A stretch of 64,000 nt of DNA, from assembly GCA_022651005.1 (NCBI GenBank), contig JALCQD010000004.1, forward strand, positions 1-64,000, read 5' to 3'. A program made the translations under genes and the position numbers. The notes beneath the pieces were generated by a model, which saw only the letters and a program-made list of their open reading frames with translations, made no database searches and was not told the origin of the DNA. The DNA is from Bifidobacteriaceae bacterium. Its GTDB lineage: Bacteria; Actinomycetota; Actinomycetes; Actinomycetales; Bifidobacteriaceae. Of this stretch, positions 53,650 through 58,687 are shown one piece after another (position 1 is the first letter of the stretch; each line of letters begins with the position of its first letter).

Positions 53650-55896
53650 TTAACGGTGCTTGCGTTGGCGTAGGTGCTGGTTGATGAGCGCCTCCTGGCA
53701 GTCAATGAGCGGATTGCCCTGATCGTCGGTGGAATGCCGTACGTAAGAGCCGTCTCCCTTCATATGCCATGAGCTGGTGGTGTCGGCCATCTGGAAGTCC
53801 ACGTAATTGATGAGCTCCTCCACCTCGTCCGGGCTGGTAATGCGGATGAGTGTTTCCACGCGTCTATCGAGATTCCGGTGCATGAGGTCGGCGGAGCCGA
53901 TCCACACCTCTGGGCCGTTCAGCGGGCCTTCGCCGATCTGAGGACCCTGCGAATTTGCAAAAGCGAAGACGCGGGAGTGCTCTAGGAAGCGTCCGAGGAT
54001 GGAGCGTACGCGGATGTTGTCGGAGAGCCCTGGAACGCCCGGCTTGAGTGCACAAATTCCACGTTCCACAATATCGACCTTCACGCCGGCTTGGCTTGCA
54101 CGGTAGAGAGCGTCGATGCATTTTTCGTCCACAAGTGAGTTGACCTTGATCTTGACCCACGCCTCCTTGCCGGCTCGTGCGGCATCCTCCTCGCGGTGAA
54201 TGCGTTCGATGAGTCCTGCGCGGACGCTGCGAGGCGCCACGAGCAGCCTGTGGAAGCTCGACTTCGGGGCATATCCCGACAGTTGATTGAACAGGCGCGT
54301 GAGGTCCTGGCCTACCACGGGATCGCATGTGAGCAGTCCCAAATCGGTATATTGGCGCGCTGTCTTGGGATTGTAATTGCCGGTTCCAACGTGGCAATAG
54401 CGGCGGAGCGAATCGCCCTCCTGGCGTACCACGAGCGAGAGCTTGCAGTGAGTTTTGAGACCCACGATGCCATACACCACGTGCACGCCCGCGCGCTCTA
54501 GCTTCCTGGCCCAGGCGATATTGGCTTCTTCATCAAAGCGAGCCTTGATCTCGACGAGTGCTAGCACCTGCTTGCCAGCGTGCGCCGCGTCGACGAGGGC
54601 GTCGATGATCGGCGAATTCCCAGAGGTTCGATACAGGGTCTGCTTGATGGCGAGTACCTTGGGGTCCGCGGCCGCCTGTGCGAGAAAAGCTTGTACCGAC
54701 GTGGAGAATGAATCGTAAGGGTGGTGCAGCAGGATGTCGCTTTCGCGGATTGCCGCAAAAATGTCCTGAGCGCGCGACGACTCGACCTCGGCGATCTGGC
54801 GGTTCGTGGGTGGAATGAACGGTTTGAATTTCAGGTCTGCGCGGTCGATCTTCTGCAGCTCGAAGAGCACAGAGAGGTCAAGAGGTGCCGGCAGACGGTA
54901 TACCTCGTCGTCGCTCACGCGTAGCTGTACGGCAAGCAGGTGGGAGAGGAAGGGAGACGTCTCCTCATTGAGCTCGAGGCGGATCGGCGGTCCGAAGCGG
55001 CGACGCAGAAGCTCCTTCTCCATGGCGTTGAGGAGGTTTTCGGCGTCATCTTCCTCGACGTCAATGTCCTCGTTGCGTGTGACACGGAAGCCACGGGCCT
55101 CTTTAATGACCATTCCGGGGAAGAGCGCATCCAGATGGGCGATGAGCAGGTTTTCCATGGTGATGAAGCCATAGCGTTCGTCTGCTGCCTCGTCGGAGGT
55201 GCGGTCGCCGACGGCCACGAGGCGCGGCATGTTGTCGGGAATCTTGACGCGCGCGAAGTGCGATTTCCCTGACACAGGATTTTCCACGATGACTGCGAGG
55301 TTGAGGGAGTTGCCCGAAATGTAGGGGAAGGGGTGCGCGGGATCCACGGCCAGCGGCGTGAGAACAGGGAACACCTGGCGACGGAAGAATTGCGAGAGAT
55401 GTTCCTGCTCGCTGATGGTGAGTTCGCTCCACTTGAGCAGCACGATTTTTTCTGCGGCGAGATCGGGAAGAATATGGTCGATGGTGTAGCGGGCGTGCTG
55501 CAACGAAATTTTGTGGGCCTGTTCGCTGATGGCACGCAGCTGCTGGCGTGGACTGAGGCCGCTTGCCGCCGTGACGGCGATTCCCGTATCGATGCGGCGC
55601 TTGAGACCGGCCACGCGCACCATAAAGAACTCATCGAGATTCGACGCAAAGATGGCGGAGAAATTGGCGCGTTCGAGGACGGGAACGCTCTCGTCCTGCG
55701 CGAGTTCAAGCACGCGCTTGTTGAATTTGATCCACGAGATTTCGCGGTCGAAGAAGCGGTCCTTTGGCAGCGGCTCGTGACGAGGATTCGTGTCCTCGAT
55801 CTCGAGCGAGCGGTCGATTTTCTCGTCTTCCGCTATGTGCTCGGCAATCTGCATTTTGAGCTGTGCCCGCGAGGGCTCATTAAATATTTGCGCCAT
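53650..55896 (-). CDS. ppk1: Polyphosphate kinase 1
   Basis: 748 residues. It makes inorganic polyphosphate from ATP at the membrane. The four PPK1 domains are readable: [21 protein letters not shown] (N), [11 protein letters not shown] and [21 protein letters not shown] (head), then [20 protein letters not shown] and [21 protein letters not shown] with the HCKLxLV histidine (autophosphorylated residue) and [10 protein letters not shown]. The ATG is six bases after a TAGAGT box (55903-55908), so a leaderless transcript is possible. A candidate structured RNA with terminator lies just upstream. The gene is 66 bases before mutT1 on the same strand. Confidence 0.97.
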
Positions 55897-55946
55897 GACT
55901 TAACTCTAGTAGATGGGGTGTGCTGGCGTGTGCCGGCAATGAACAT

Positions 55947-55974
55947 AAAAACGGGGGCCCCGATTGGGGCCCCC
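55947..55974 (-). terminator. GC-rich intrinsic terminator before ppk1
   Basis: A nine-base perfect stem (GGGGGCCCC with GGGGCCCCC, 55953-55961 and 55966-55974) around a four-base loop, followed on the minus strand by G and five T. Confidence 0.85.
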
Positions 55975-56107
55975 TCAAAGAAAACTGTTAGCAGAATCTC
56001 TGCACAACATCTTCGTTGCAAGCGGTAAGTTCTATCCAGTGTCCGCCCAACGTCTTAACCAATGTGGTTTTTACTTTTGTGGGCTCTGCTCTTAAGTTTT
56101 CTTTGTA
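55947..56107 (-). ncRNA. Candidate structured RNA with own promoter and terminator, upstream of ppk1
   Basis: On the minus strand a -35 TTGCAC (56136-56141) and -10 GATAAT (56114-56119), spaced by 16, should start an RNA near 56107. It would end at a GC-rich hairpin GGGGGCCCC-loop-GGGGCCCCC (55953-55974) and five T (55947-55951). Within it 56095-56105 and 55976-55986 pair perfectly (11 bp, CAAAGAAAACT type). They enclose a 6-bp stem (56085-56090 with 55990-55995) and then inner hairpins (56080-56084 with 56045-56049; 56065-56069 with 56057-56061). It is about 160 nt with no ORF or known family. It may be a stand-alone small RNA or a leader attenuator of ppk1, which starts 51 bases after the T run. 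Confidence 0.6.
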
Positions 56108-56379
56108 CTTACTATTATCGTGATTTCTCGTGAGAGTGCAAGCAATTTCGCTGGTTTGAGAAAATGTTATTTTTTGGAATCACGTGTTGTTTTTTGGCTG
56201 TTTTGAGGTGGATTCTGCGTTCTTTTTATTCTTTCATTCGTGGGTTTGGGAGCTCTTGTGCATACATGGAAACCAGCCCATGAATTCGAGGCGTGTCGAA
56301 AGCTGTGGATAGAGATCCCATTCGACCACAGGCATCGATTTTGGTGGTGCGGTGTCACATTGTCAATCACAATGGGCGC

Positions 56380-57600
56380 ATGACTGACTTTGATGCCACG
56401 CATGGTGCGTATGACGGGTACGGAGAATATGGCGAGTATGGCGAGTATGGCGAGTACGACCGGCGTGACCGATATGGCAAAAACATCGACAGTACTGGTT
56501 CCGGTACTGATCTTGAGGACGGCACCGTGATGACTGTGCCGCTGCCACGCCGTCCCGAAGATCATCGTGGCGGCGCTGCGGTGTCTTCTGTTCGCCCCCG
56601 TCGGCCGGCACTTCCAGCGAGGCCCACTGAGCCGAGACGCCTCTCGCCGTTCCGCCGCTCGACGGTCCTCAATGAGCGGAGTGTGGCAGCATATCCTGTT
56701 CTCGGCGGCGCAATCGAGAGGGATCAAGAACTAAACAGTGGGGTCGCCCTGCGCGGTGATGCTGCGCTTGACGACGGTGCTCCTGCGCACGGATGCCACA
56801 TCATTGAGGTGTCTTCTGCCAGTGGGCGGACTGGCGTCAGTGTTTTGTCTGGGCTCATCGCGCTCGCACTTGCGAGGGGAAGACATGCTGGAGGTGGCGT
56901 GGGACTCATGGATGCGAGCCCGGAGCGTGGCGGACTCGACCTCGTGCTGGGGTTGGAAGCCGATTCAGGGCTGCGATGGTCACACGTCGAGGCGCCCATG
57001 GGATATCTCGATTCCAGTTCCTTTGTGCGCGAATTGGTGCACTGGGAGGGAATTGATGTTCTCGGCGCGGATCCATGGAGCGGCGCTTCGCTTCAGGGAT
57101 GGGAGGTGAGAGCCACATACTCTGCTATGTGTTCTGCGGAGGAGTGGTTGGTGGTTGACGAAGGGGATATTCCAATATCGCTGGAAACGTATGGCGTTAA
57201 AAATAGCGCAGCAACAGTGAAAGTGACGTTGGTGGAATTGAGCCTCTATGGTCTCTCTCAGGCTTTGGGGAAAATGATGCGTCAGAAGGCGCATGCCGGA
57301 GAGGATGCAACCGCGGGCAATAGTGCGCAATCATGGGATGGATCACGCGAGGGAAAGACTGCGCAAGAGGTTTTCATCGGTGTCCCGTCAGCGCGGGCGT
57401 GTGGCAAAAGACGTGCGCTTGTCAGCGTGGAGCAAGCCGCCGCCTATCTTGGAGTGGACTTTCTTGGGACGCTATCTCCTCTTCCCAAGATTGAAAGGGA
57501 CATTTCTCGCGGGTTGGGCATCGTGGCAATTCCAAAGCAGTACGAGCGGCTGATCTCTTCCGTGCTCAGCAGAGCGGGAGCTGGGGATGTTCTCCGATAA
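56380..57600 (+). CDS. CpaE/TadZ-like (Ssd) localisation protein of the tad pilus cluster
   Basis: 406 residues from ATG 56380; the frame is open to GTG 56293 but no ribosome site supports it, while CACAAT lies six bases before 56380. The start has a (GEY)n repeat (DGYGEYGEYGEYGEYDRRDR), then a Pro/Arg-rich linker. From about 155 comes a ParA/MinD-like domain, IIEVSSASGRTGVSVLSGLIALALARG, where the deviant Walker A (SASGRTGVS) lacks the usual Lys pattern, as in actinobacterial septum-site-determining-like proteins. It overlaps tadA by 14 bases and probably positions the secretion machine. Confidence 0.8.
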   Translation: MTDFDATHGAYDGYGEYGEYGEYGEYDRRDRYGKNIDSTGSGTDLEDGTVMTVPLPRRPEDHRGGAAVSSVRPRRPALPARPTEPRRLSPFRRSTVLNERSVAAYPVLGGAIERDQELNSGVALRGDAALDDGAPAHGCHIIEVSSASGRTGVSVLSGLIALALARGRHAGGGVGLMDASPERGGLDLVLGLEADSGLRWSHVEAPMGYLDSSSFVRELVHWEGIDVLGADPWSGASLQGWEVRATYSAMCSAEEWLVVDEGDIPISLETYGVKNSAATVKVTLVELSLYGLSQALGKMMRQKAHAGEDATAGNSAQSWDGSREGKTAQEVFIGVPSARACGKRRALVSVEQAAAYLGVDFLGTLSPLPKIERDISRGLGIVAIPKQYERLISSVLSRAGAGDVLR

Positions 57601-58687
57601 CGGCCTTGGATTTGGACCCTTGGAACCCGTTGTTTCTTTGCCTGGGGTGACGGACATTGCCGTGACTCCGTGCGGTGCGGTGTGGATAGACAGGGGAGAG
57701 GGCATGCGCGAAGTGACCTTGGAAGTCCCTTTCTCGACACCTGCACGAGTGAGGGAGTATGCGATGCGGCTATGTGCCCAACTTGGCCGGAGGCTTGATG
57801 ATGCGTGCCCCATTGCGGACGCCGCCTCGATGACGGGTGTGCGTGTCCACGCCGTTCTTGAGCCCCTAGTGCCTGCTGGTGCGGCAATCTCGATCCGTCT
57901 CCCTCCACGCGCGGCGCCGAGCCTCGGTGATATCGAGCGAAGCGGGTTTCTGCCACATGCATGGGTATCAGTGCTTAGGAGGCTTCTCGCTGCCCGCGCG
58001 AGCATCGTTGTGAGCGGGGGAACTGGCACGGGTAAGACCACGCTGGTGCGTGCACTTCTTCGCGAGTGTGAGCCCACGGAGCGTGTTGTGATTGTTGAAG
58101 AGATCCGCGAAATAGGAGACCTCGGTCGCGGCAATTTCGTGTCCCTCGTGTCGAGAGAGAAAAACGTCGAAGGCGCGGGGGAGGTGTCGCTATCGCAGCT
58201 GGTGACGGCGACGTTGCGCATGCGGCCCGATCGCATAGTGCTCGGTGAGTGCCGCGGACCGGAGACTGCCGATGTGCTGAGAGCTTTCAACACCGGACAT
58301 CGGGGCGGCATGGTAACCATTCATTCGAACGGCATCGAGAGACTGCCGCAGAGGTTGGTGGCGCTAGGGCAGCTGAGTGGGATGTCCTCTGAAAGCCTCG
58401 TGACTCTTGCGGACGGAGCTTTTGATGTGGCACTGCACCTTGAGAGAGCTGCGAGAGGGCCTCTGGCCGGTTCGCGACGAGTGTCGTGCATCGGCCATCT
58501 TTGCGGAGACGCACCAACCGGTCCTCTCGGGGTGAGCGAGGAACGAGGGTCACATCAAAGAGCTAAAGGCTTGCGTGGCGAGGTTCTTTCGACGTGGGAC
58601 GGGATGGGGAGTCCCGTAATTTTCCCGGGATGGGAAGAATTTTCGTCTCAATGGGGACTCGAAGACGATGGTGGGGAGGTGACGTGA
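57587..58687 (+). CDS. tadA: TadA/CpaF-type secretion ATPase
   Basis: 366 residues. Walker A GGTGTGKT (144-151), Walker B-like VVIVEEIREIGDLG, His box RPDRIVLGECRGPET and TGHRGGMVTIHSNG are typical of type II/IV secretion ATPases. It powers assembly of Flp/Tad-type pili. The N-terminal domain is short. The ATG follows GGGAG and overlaps the preceding gene by 14 bases; the next gene begins one base after its stop. Confidence 0.93.
   Translation: MFSDNGLGFGPLEPVVSLPGVTDIAVTPCGAVWIDRGEGMREVTLEVPFSTPARVREYAMRLCAQLGRRLDDACPIADAASMTGVRVHAVLEPLVPAGAAISIRLPPRAAPSLGDIERSGFLPHAWVSVLRRLLAARASIVVSGGTGTGKTTLVRALLRECEPTERVVIVEEIREIGDLGRGNFVSLVSREKNVEGAGEVSLSQLVTATLRMRPDRIVLGECRGPETADVLRAFNTGHRGGMVTIHSNGIERLPQRLVALGQLSGMSSESLVTLADGAFDVALHLERAARGPLAGSRRVSCIGHLCGDAPTGPLGVSEERGSHQRAKGLRGEVLSTWDGMGSPVIFPGWEEFSSQWGLEDDGGEVT

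Follow-up and report, generated by a model that had tools for sequence, protein, structure and literature searches.

Polymerase-binding RNAs of actinobacteria and the RNA gene of the window

Ms1 (Rfam RF02566; MTS2823 in M. tuberculosis, scr3559 in S. coelicolor) is described as binding the core of RNA polymerase, both in M. smegmatis (PMC4191392) and in S. coelicolor (PMC9130861). Its published fold is depicted there as a long hairpin with a conserved central bubble and two short hairpins (PMC4191392), and HAD hydrolase genes mark its locus, CpaE being one of the words given for its synteny (PMC9130861). The same 2022 study reports Ms1 in 824 species from a synteny search, lists it in Cellulomonas and other Micrococcales, and notes for Bifidobacterium only intergenic regions that were too short. 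Two papers record the failure to find either 6S or Ms1 in Bifidobacterium (PMC9130861, PMC11077062), and the second of these, a RIP-seq study of 2024, expects polymerase RNAs that are as yet unrecognised, for example in Bifidobacterium bifidum (PMC11077062).

The window (the whole stretch of DNA analyzed, 64,000 nucleotides of contig JALCQD010000004.1 in assembly GCA_022651005.1 of a Bifidobacteriaceae bacterium) contains a structured RNA gene of ~160 nt on the minus strand, at about 56106 to 55947, between ppk1 and a homologue of ssd/cpaE. It is a stand-alone gene that apparently has not been described before, and it is most likely a compact Ms1-type RNA of bifidobacteria. The features discussed below are as follows, in window coordinates.

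53650..55896, minus: ppk1; Pfam PP_kinase domains, NF003922 above its cut-off
about 56106 to 55947, minus: candidate RNA gene, ~160 nt; 5' end inferred from the -10 box, 3' end from the terminator
56136..56141, minus: -35-like TTGCAC, 3/6 of consensus, spacer 16 nt; missed by a consensus scan
56114..56119, minus: -10 box GATAAT, 5/6, read from the sequence
56095..56105, minus: P1 5' strand, CAAAGAAAACT; closing stem, 11 bp
56085..56090, minus: P2 5' strand, AGCAGA; covarying helix, both sides changed in 7/7 pairs (41 loci)
56079..56083, minus: CCCAC motif; 5' strand of the internal loop and start of P2b
56077..56081, minus: P2b 5' strand, CACAA; 4/5 pairs invariant (40 distinct sequences)
56057..56069, minus: P3 hairpin, part of the three-way junction; both sides changed in 4/4 pairs
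56043..56052, minus: P4 5' strand, CGTTGGGCGG; bulged helix, 10 bp, 95.5% of cells paired
56014..56025, minus: P4 3' strand, CCGCTTGCAACG
56003..56007, minus: P2b 3' strand, TTGTG
55996..56002, minus: internal loop 3' strand, CAGAGAT
55990..55995, minus: P2 3' strand, TCTGCT, partner of the P2 5' strand
55976..55986, minus: P1 3' strand, AGTTTTCTTTG
55947..55974, minus: intrinsic terminator, all-GC 9-bp stem followed by GTTTTT
56293..57600, plus, divergent from the RNA: ssd/cpaE homologue, start codon uncertain; TIGR03815 (septum site-determining protein Ssd) at E 2.7e-18, below the curated cut-off; no Pfam match
57587..58687, plus: tadA ATPase of a tad locus; Pfam T2SSE, TIGR03819 at E 6.3e-95, below the curated cut-off

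A preliminary description of this region had proposed a self-contained RNA gene of about 160 nt, and that proposal holds: the gene has its own -10 box, closing stem and terminator, and it is conserved with covariation. The perfect 11-bp closing stem (56105-56095 with 55986-55976) and the GC-rich terminator with five T (55974-55947) are exact as they had been described. The promoter, which had been called near-consensus, is weaker than that, with five of six matches in the -10 box but only three of six in the -35-like element, and a sigma-70 consensus scan of the RNA promoter region returned no site. The further statement that the RNA has no ORF needs rewording, because mechanically called ORFs do cross it (e.g., 55833-56021 on the minus strand, 62 aa); these are nonetheless taken as accidental, since variation in the RNA takes the form of indels and base-pair changes, and a coding gene at this place was set aside for the same reason.

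Distribution, fold and covariation

A covariance model (R1) built from 30 sequences, carrying the first structure and applied at a limit of E<=0.01, matches positions 55974-56110 of the window and, in all, 123 of 151 Bifidobacteriaceae genomes, at one place each; the matches take in 117 of the 130 good-quality genomes and 8 of 16 genera. The 13 good-quality genomes without an R1 match include some that are very small and some of normal size. Similar DNA was found by nucleotide search in 111 of the 151 genomes at the loose limit of E<=1, where the lower end includes chance matches. Over 396 genomes of the order, searched with strict filters that lose weak matches, R1 matched 30, all of one family; this is taken to be Bifidobacteriaceae because an exact pattern from the RNA retrieved 66 stretches (65 contigs) of named genomes, every one from Bifidobacterium. 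In B. pongonis two stretches of one contig carry identical letters, one of them only in part; two copies are not claimed.

An Rfam scan of the window at the gathering score reached no family in the RNA, and the suggestion that the RNA belongs to no known Rfam family thus stands. Sub-threshold matches to the L20 leader, BjrC68 and suhB appeared in a permissive search and were rejected, as they rest largely on the GC-rich terminator. No description of the RNA was found in the literature covered (most subscription papers and supplements lay outside its scope), nor is the RNA listed in the table of six RNAs in PMC5746004.

The folding energy of the RNA is -60.8 kcal/mol, compared with -39.9 ± 4.3 kcal/mol in 200 shuffles (z -4.8; 0/200 as good), a value to which the terminator contributes. 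From the closing stem inward, the fold consists of P1, P2, an internal loop (GCC / CAGAGA) and P2b (CACAA/UUGUG), which is nearly invariant, and it ends in a three-way junction that bears the hairpins P3 and P4; this covarying three-way junction is not identical to the minimum-energy fold of the single sequence. The structure carried by R1, with a CAAC/GTTG hairpin, was replaced: on 30 nearer relatives it gave 5 pairs changed on both sides, and 207 of 500 shuffles were as high. More is accounted for by P4 (GTTG/CAAC plus GRCGG/CCGYY) together with P2b than by that first hairpin structure, and with the corrected structure 19 sequences show 96.6% of cells paired and 10 pairs with two-sided change, a result equaled in only 2 of 500 shuffles. 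The alignment designated A5 comprises 52 of 67 distinct cores, and model R2 comprises 19 of these with equal P2 length.

A wider set of 41 family loci (40 distinct sequences) consists of the window, 20 of the more diverged loci and 20 others with an R1 match. In the alignment of this set, which was fitted to the structure model and therefore leans towards it, 93.9% of cells are paired and 16 of 28 pairs have changes on both sides; compensatory stem changes in related genomes, to which the preliminary description had looked for confirmation, are thus present, and the three-way junction, with which it held the nested stems to be compatible, is backed by covariation. Cells with two-sided change number 107, compared with 35 in shuffles, and of five covariation measures four were matched by 0/500 shuffles and the fifth by 1/500. 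When the partner columns are slid by 1-3 positions, pairing falls to 32-54%. A terminator-like hairpin with a T run lies 3' of the RNA at all 41 loci as judged by a lenient script, and a -10-like hexamer (>=4/6) lies just upstream at all 41, also a lenient count in which the best hexamer was picked from a short stretch.

The ssd-tad neighborhood and the compact Ms1-like RNAs

The ssd/cpaE neighbor, missed in the preliminary description, is more telling than ppk. Among the 41 chosen loci the RNA lies beside ssd/cpaE in 34, with 30 divergent and 4 co-directional arrangements. At the other seven (L107, L108, L110-L114) ppk lies beside the RNA and the ssd/tad genes are absent from the 10-kb stretch, which indicates that the RNA may outlast the tad cluster. 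In the window the 5' end of the ssd ORF contains a short repeat, GGCGAGTAT, at 56422-56460 on the plus strand, read as GEYGEYGEY, and the true ssd start may be further downstream.

No HAD-IB hydrolase gene lies beside the RNA at any of the 41 loci, and in the window genome TIGR01490 (HAD) stayed below its cut-off; of 30 loci from related genomes, 13 have HAD next to ssd or tadA. The published synteny search was anchored on HAD-type neighbors and long intergenic regions, and the lack of HAD here is a possible reason why it missed Bifidobacterium. Likewise, RF02566 matches nothing in the window, nor elsewhere in its genome. That model passed its own cut-off in only 3 of 149 genomes of the phylum, and is for this reason called narrow; these matches are the source of the mycobacterial Ms1 used as a yardstick below. 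Since neither an RF02566 match nor a HAD neighbor was found, the RNA is not to be filed under RF02566.

A bridge to Ms1 is offered by other short RNAs of the same order. Searching HAD loci for further Ms1 RNAs with a loose regular expression gave mostly noise, from which only L150 and L153 were kept. Model R3 was made from 11 short RNAs beside HAD genes (115 positions), and over 297 genomes of the order it matches 105 at E<=0.1 and 90 at E<=3e-7; two Bifidobacteriaceae genomes are matched weakly (E 0.02 and 0.04), at places other than the bifidobacterial RNA. Given 90 of 297 order genomes for R3 versus 3 of 149 phylum genomes for RF02566, a new or widened Rfam Ms1 model seems justified. Fifty R3 loci were inspected, 30 of them returned by the search and 20 chosen: 26 have HAD, 14 ssd without HAD, 2 only tadA, and 8 none of these within about 1.5 kb. 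When the nine loci from training genomes, all among the 26 with HAD, are taken away, the counts are 17, 14, 2 and 8 of 41. The 14 loci with ssd but no HAD show that, in the absence of HAD, ssd is often still the neighbor of the compact RNA, which is the bifidobacterial arrangement.

Of these 50 loci, 44 (43 distinct sequences) were aligned as A10, with L159, L161, L172, L177, L181 and L184 left out. The compact Ms1-like RNAs have the same nesting of helices as the bifidobacterial RNA, with covariation in 19 of 27 pairs. The pairs that open P2b, C-G and A-U, are invariant in 40/40 bifidobacterial and 43/43 compact Ms1-like sequences, and CCCAC occurs in 30/30 nearer relatives, at 36/41 loci of the wide family set and in 44/44 of the aligned compact RNAs.

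The two families were compared directly as profiles. The bifidobacterial RNA against the Ms1-like set scores 22.7, compared with a null of 12.1 ± 2.2; scores as high arose in 1 of 3000 column shuffles, 3 of 3000 block shuffles and, in a repeat run, 2 of 1000. The same comparison gives 8.7 with one profile reversed and 14.6 with the reverse complement, and the alignment passes in order through CCCAC, the P3 loop, the CGG/CCG of P4, ACGA and GUGCA. Bifidobacterial SRP RNA (24 rows), used as a negative control, was equaled by 131/1000 shuffles against the bifidobacterial RNA and by 960/1000 against the Ms1-like set. For mycobacterial Ms1 and the Ms1-like set, a presumed homologous pair, 14 of 500 shuffles were as high. 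For mycobacterial Ms1 and the bifidobacterial RNA the figure was 277 of 500, thus no direct similarity between these two.

Searched with covariance models, neither family yielded a significant match in the other. Model R2 on Ms1 loci returned 70 matches, most of them due to chance, and these covered 2 of the 15 places where Ms1 is known (E 2.1 and 9.8); R3, searched against 38 bifidobacterial loci (37 genomes), met the RNA in 3 (E 0.64, 0.83 and 8.2). Two mycobacterial Ms1 loci served as a yardstick for R3, which found L032 (E 0.029) and missed L034. On balance, homology of the bifidobacterial RNA and the compact Ms1-like RNAs is probable.

Interpretation and comparison with known systems

The reading that we favor, and regard as fairly probable, is that the RNA is a stand-alone gene which occupies the Ms1 locus (ssd/cpaE-tadA) and corresponds to Ms1 in a compact, diverged form, and that it would bind RNA polymerase. 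Its position and architecture are what suggest polymerase binding. By analogy with what has been published on Ms1 of M. smegmatis and S. coelicolor, the RNA, once folded, would bind the polymerase core, and the site of contact would probably be the internal loop (CCCAC / CAGAGA) with the neighboring helices; it would accumulate as growth slows, keep polymerase in reserve, and help outgrowth. Several observations weigh against an Ms1-type RNA, namely the covariance searches that fell short of significance, the HAD gene (the usual neighbor of Ms1) absent beside the RNA, a published Ms1 fold that is a bubble hairpin with no three-way junction, the difference in length (160 nt versus ~300 nt for Ms1), and the lack of direct similarity to mycobacterial Ms1; moreover, ssd is missing at 7 of 41 loci and its orientation is variable, and ppk lies beside the RNA almost as often as ssd does (32/41 versus 34/41).

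Some of the same observations would fit a bifidobacterial small RNA unrelated to Ms1, which originated between ssd and ppk or was brought there later, and has a function of its own (e.g., protein binding or global regulation). Significant covariance matches would then be absent between the families, as they are, mycobacterial Ms1 would lack direct similarity, and the RNA would be confined to its family, outside of which it was not detected in the 396 order genomes under strict filters. An unrelated RNA would not, however, be expected to share its locus, nested topology and order of motifs with Ms1-like RNAs, nor to show profile similarity to them beyond that of shuffles, and we consider this origin rather unlikely.

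A 6S-type RNA, i.e., an open-promoter mimic that binds sigma-containing holoenzyme and templates short pRNAs instead of binding core, is improbable. The bifidobacterial RNA resembles 6S RNA (RF00013) in size, its length being near the 160-180 nt of 6S, in its closing stem with an internal loop, and in its presumed polymerase target, and the 41 family genomes have no other 6S matches. It differs in being branched at a three-way junction, where 6S RNA is a rod (as is the published Ms1 fold); its locus is that of Ms1; and RF00013 matched 0 of 41 family genomes, the window genome included, at E<=0.1. Quite improbable, too, is a trans-acting antisense regulator that would act on mRNAs by base pairing: unpaired stretches such as the P4 loop could pair with mRNAs, of which those of ppk and the tad pilus would be plausible targets among others, but conservation is strongest in the paired helices and internal loop, and the identity and orientation of the neighbors vary.

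The preliminary description had left open whether the RNA is a stand-alone small RNA, which is the part that survives, or an attenuator or riboswitch of ppk1 sensing phosphate- or nucleotide-related signals. As it stated, the RNA lies upstream of ppk1 in the same direction, and ppk1 has its own -10 box, TAGAGT, at 55903-55908 (minus), six bases before the ATG at 55896, which is itself ~50 bp beyond the RNA terminator; ppk1 appears leaderless. TANNNT likewise lies 5-7 nt ahead of the start codon in 26 of 33 family ppk genes examined, the window included. Within about 1.7 kb of the RNA ppk is present at 32 of the 41 loci, co-directional and downstream at 22 and divergent at 10; at the remaining 9 it was not seen, L122 being cut by a contig end and ppk in L121 lying past the tad genes. 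The co-directional arrangement of the window and of 22 of the 32 loci is what a ppk1 riboswitch or attenuator would call for, but such a leader is hardly tenable, because ppk is divergent at 10/32 and not seen beside the RNA at 9/41, the RNA terminator is kept at 41/41, and the ppk promoter is of the leaderless kind in 26/33.

Returning to a compact Ms1-type RNA, we consider it on balance somewhat more plausible than its contrary that bifidobacteria do have a polymerase-binding RNA, namely a minimal Ms1 of ~160 nt with a core of closing stem, CCCAC internal loop and three-way junction; together with the compact Ms1-like RNAs it would define an Ms1 core of smaller size, and perhaps of greater age, than the mycobacterial RNA and anchored to ssd-tad, not to HAD. 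The present work gives a locus and a sequence at which the predicted polymerase RNA may be sought in a gut commensal, and compact forms such as these could reveal the minimal polymerase-binding core of Ms1.

Of the known systems, CoRP RNA of Corynebacterium is a polymerase-associated RNA from an actinobacterial group where 6S and Ms1 were not found; it differs from the bifidobacterial RNA in its length of 516 nt, its flanking tRNA genes and its cleavage into two parts (PMC11077062). Ms1 is closer. Like the bifidobacterial RNA it is a stand-alone gene near ssd/cpaE of the tad cluster, and both show, besides a closing stem, an internal loop in which one strand carries CCCAC; by eye, mycobacterial Ms1 sequences show GTACAAAGGAA near the start where bifidobacterial RNAs show GTACAAGGA. 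The bifidobacterial RNA is shorter (~160 nt versus ~230-300 nt for Ms1), has a three-way junction in place of the published bubble hairpin, and, unlike Ms1, is without a HAD-IB hydrolase neighbor and without an RF02566 match; sequence similarity to Ms1 is seen only through the compact Ms1-like RNAs. These compact RNAs differ from it in being GC-rich and in the 3' strand of the internal loop, which is of the CNTGNTN kind compared with bifidobacterial CAGAGA, and the covariance models of the two do not detect each other. They have in common with it P2, P2b, P3 and P4 nested alike, the opening pairs of P2b, CCCAC, a short P3, CGG/CCG in P4, and a place beside ssd, with or without HAD.
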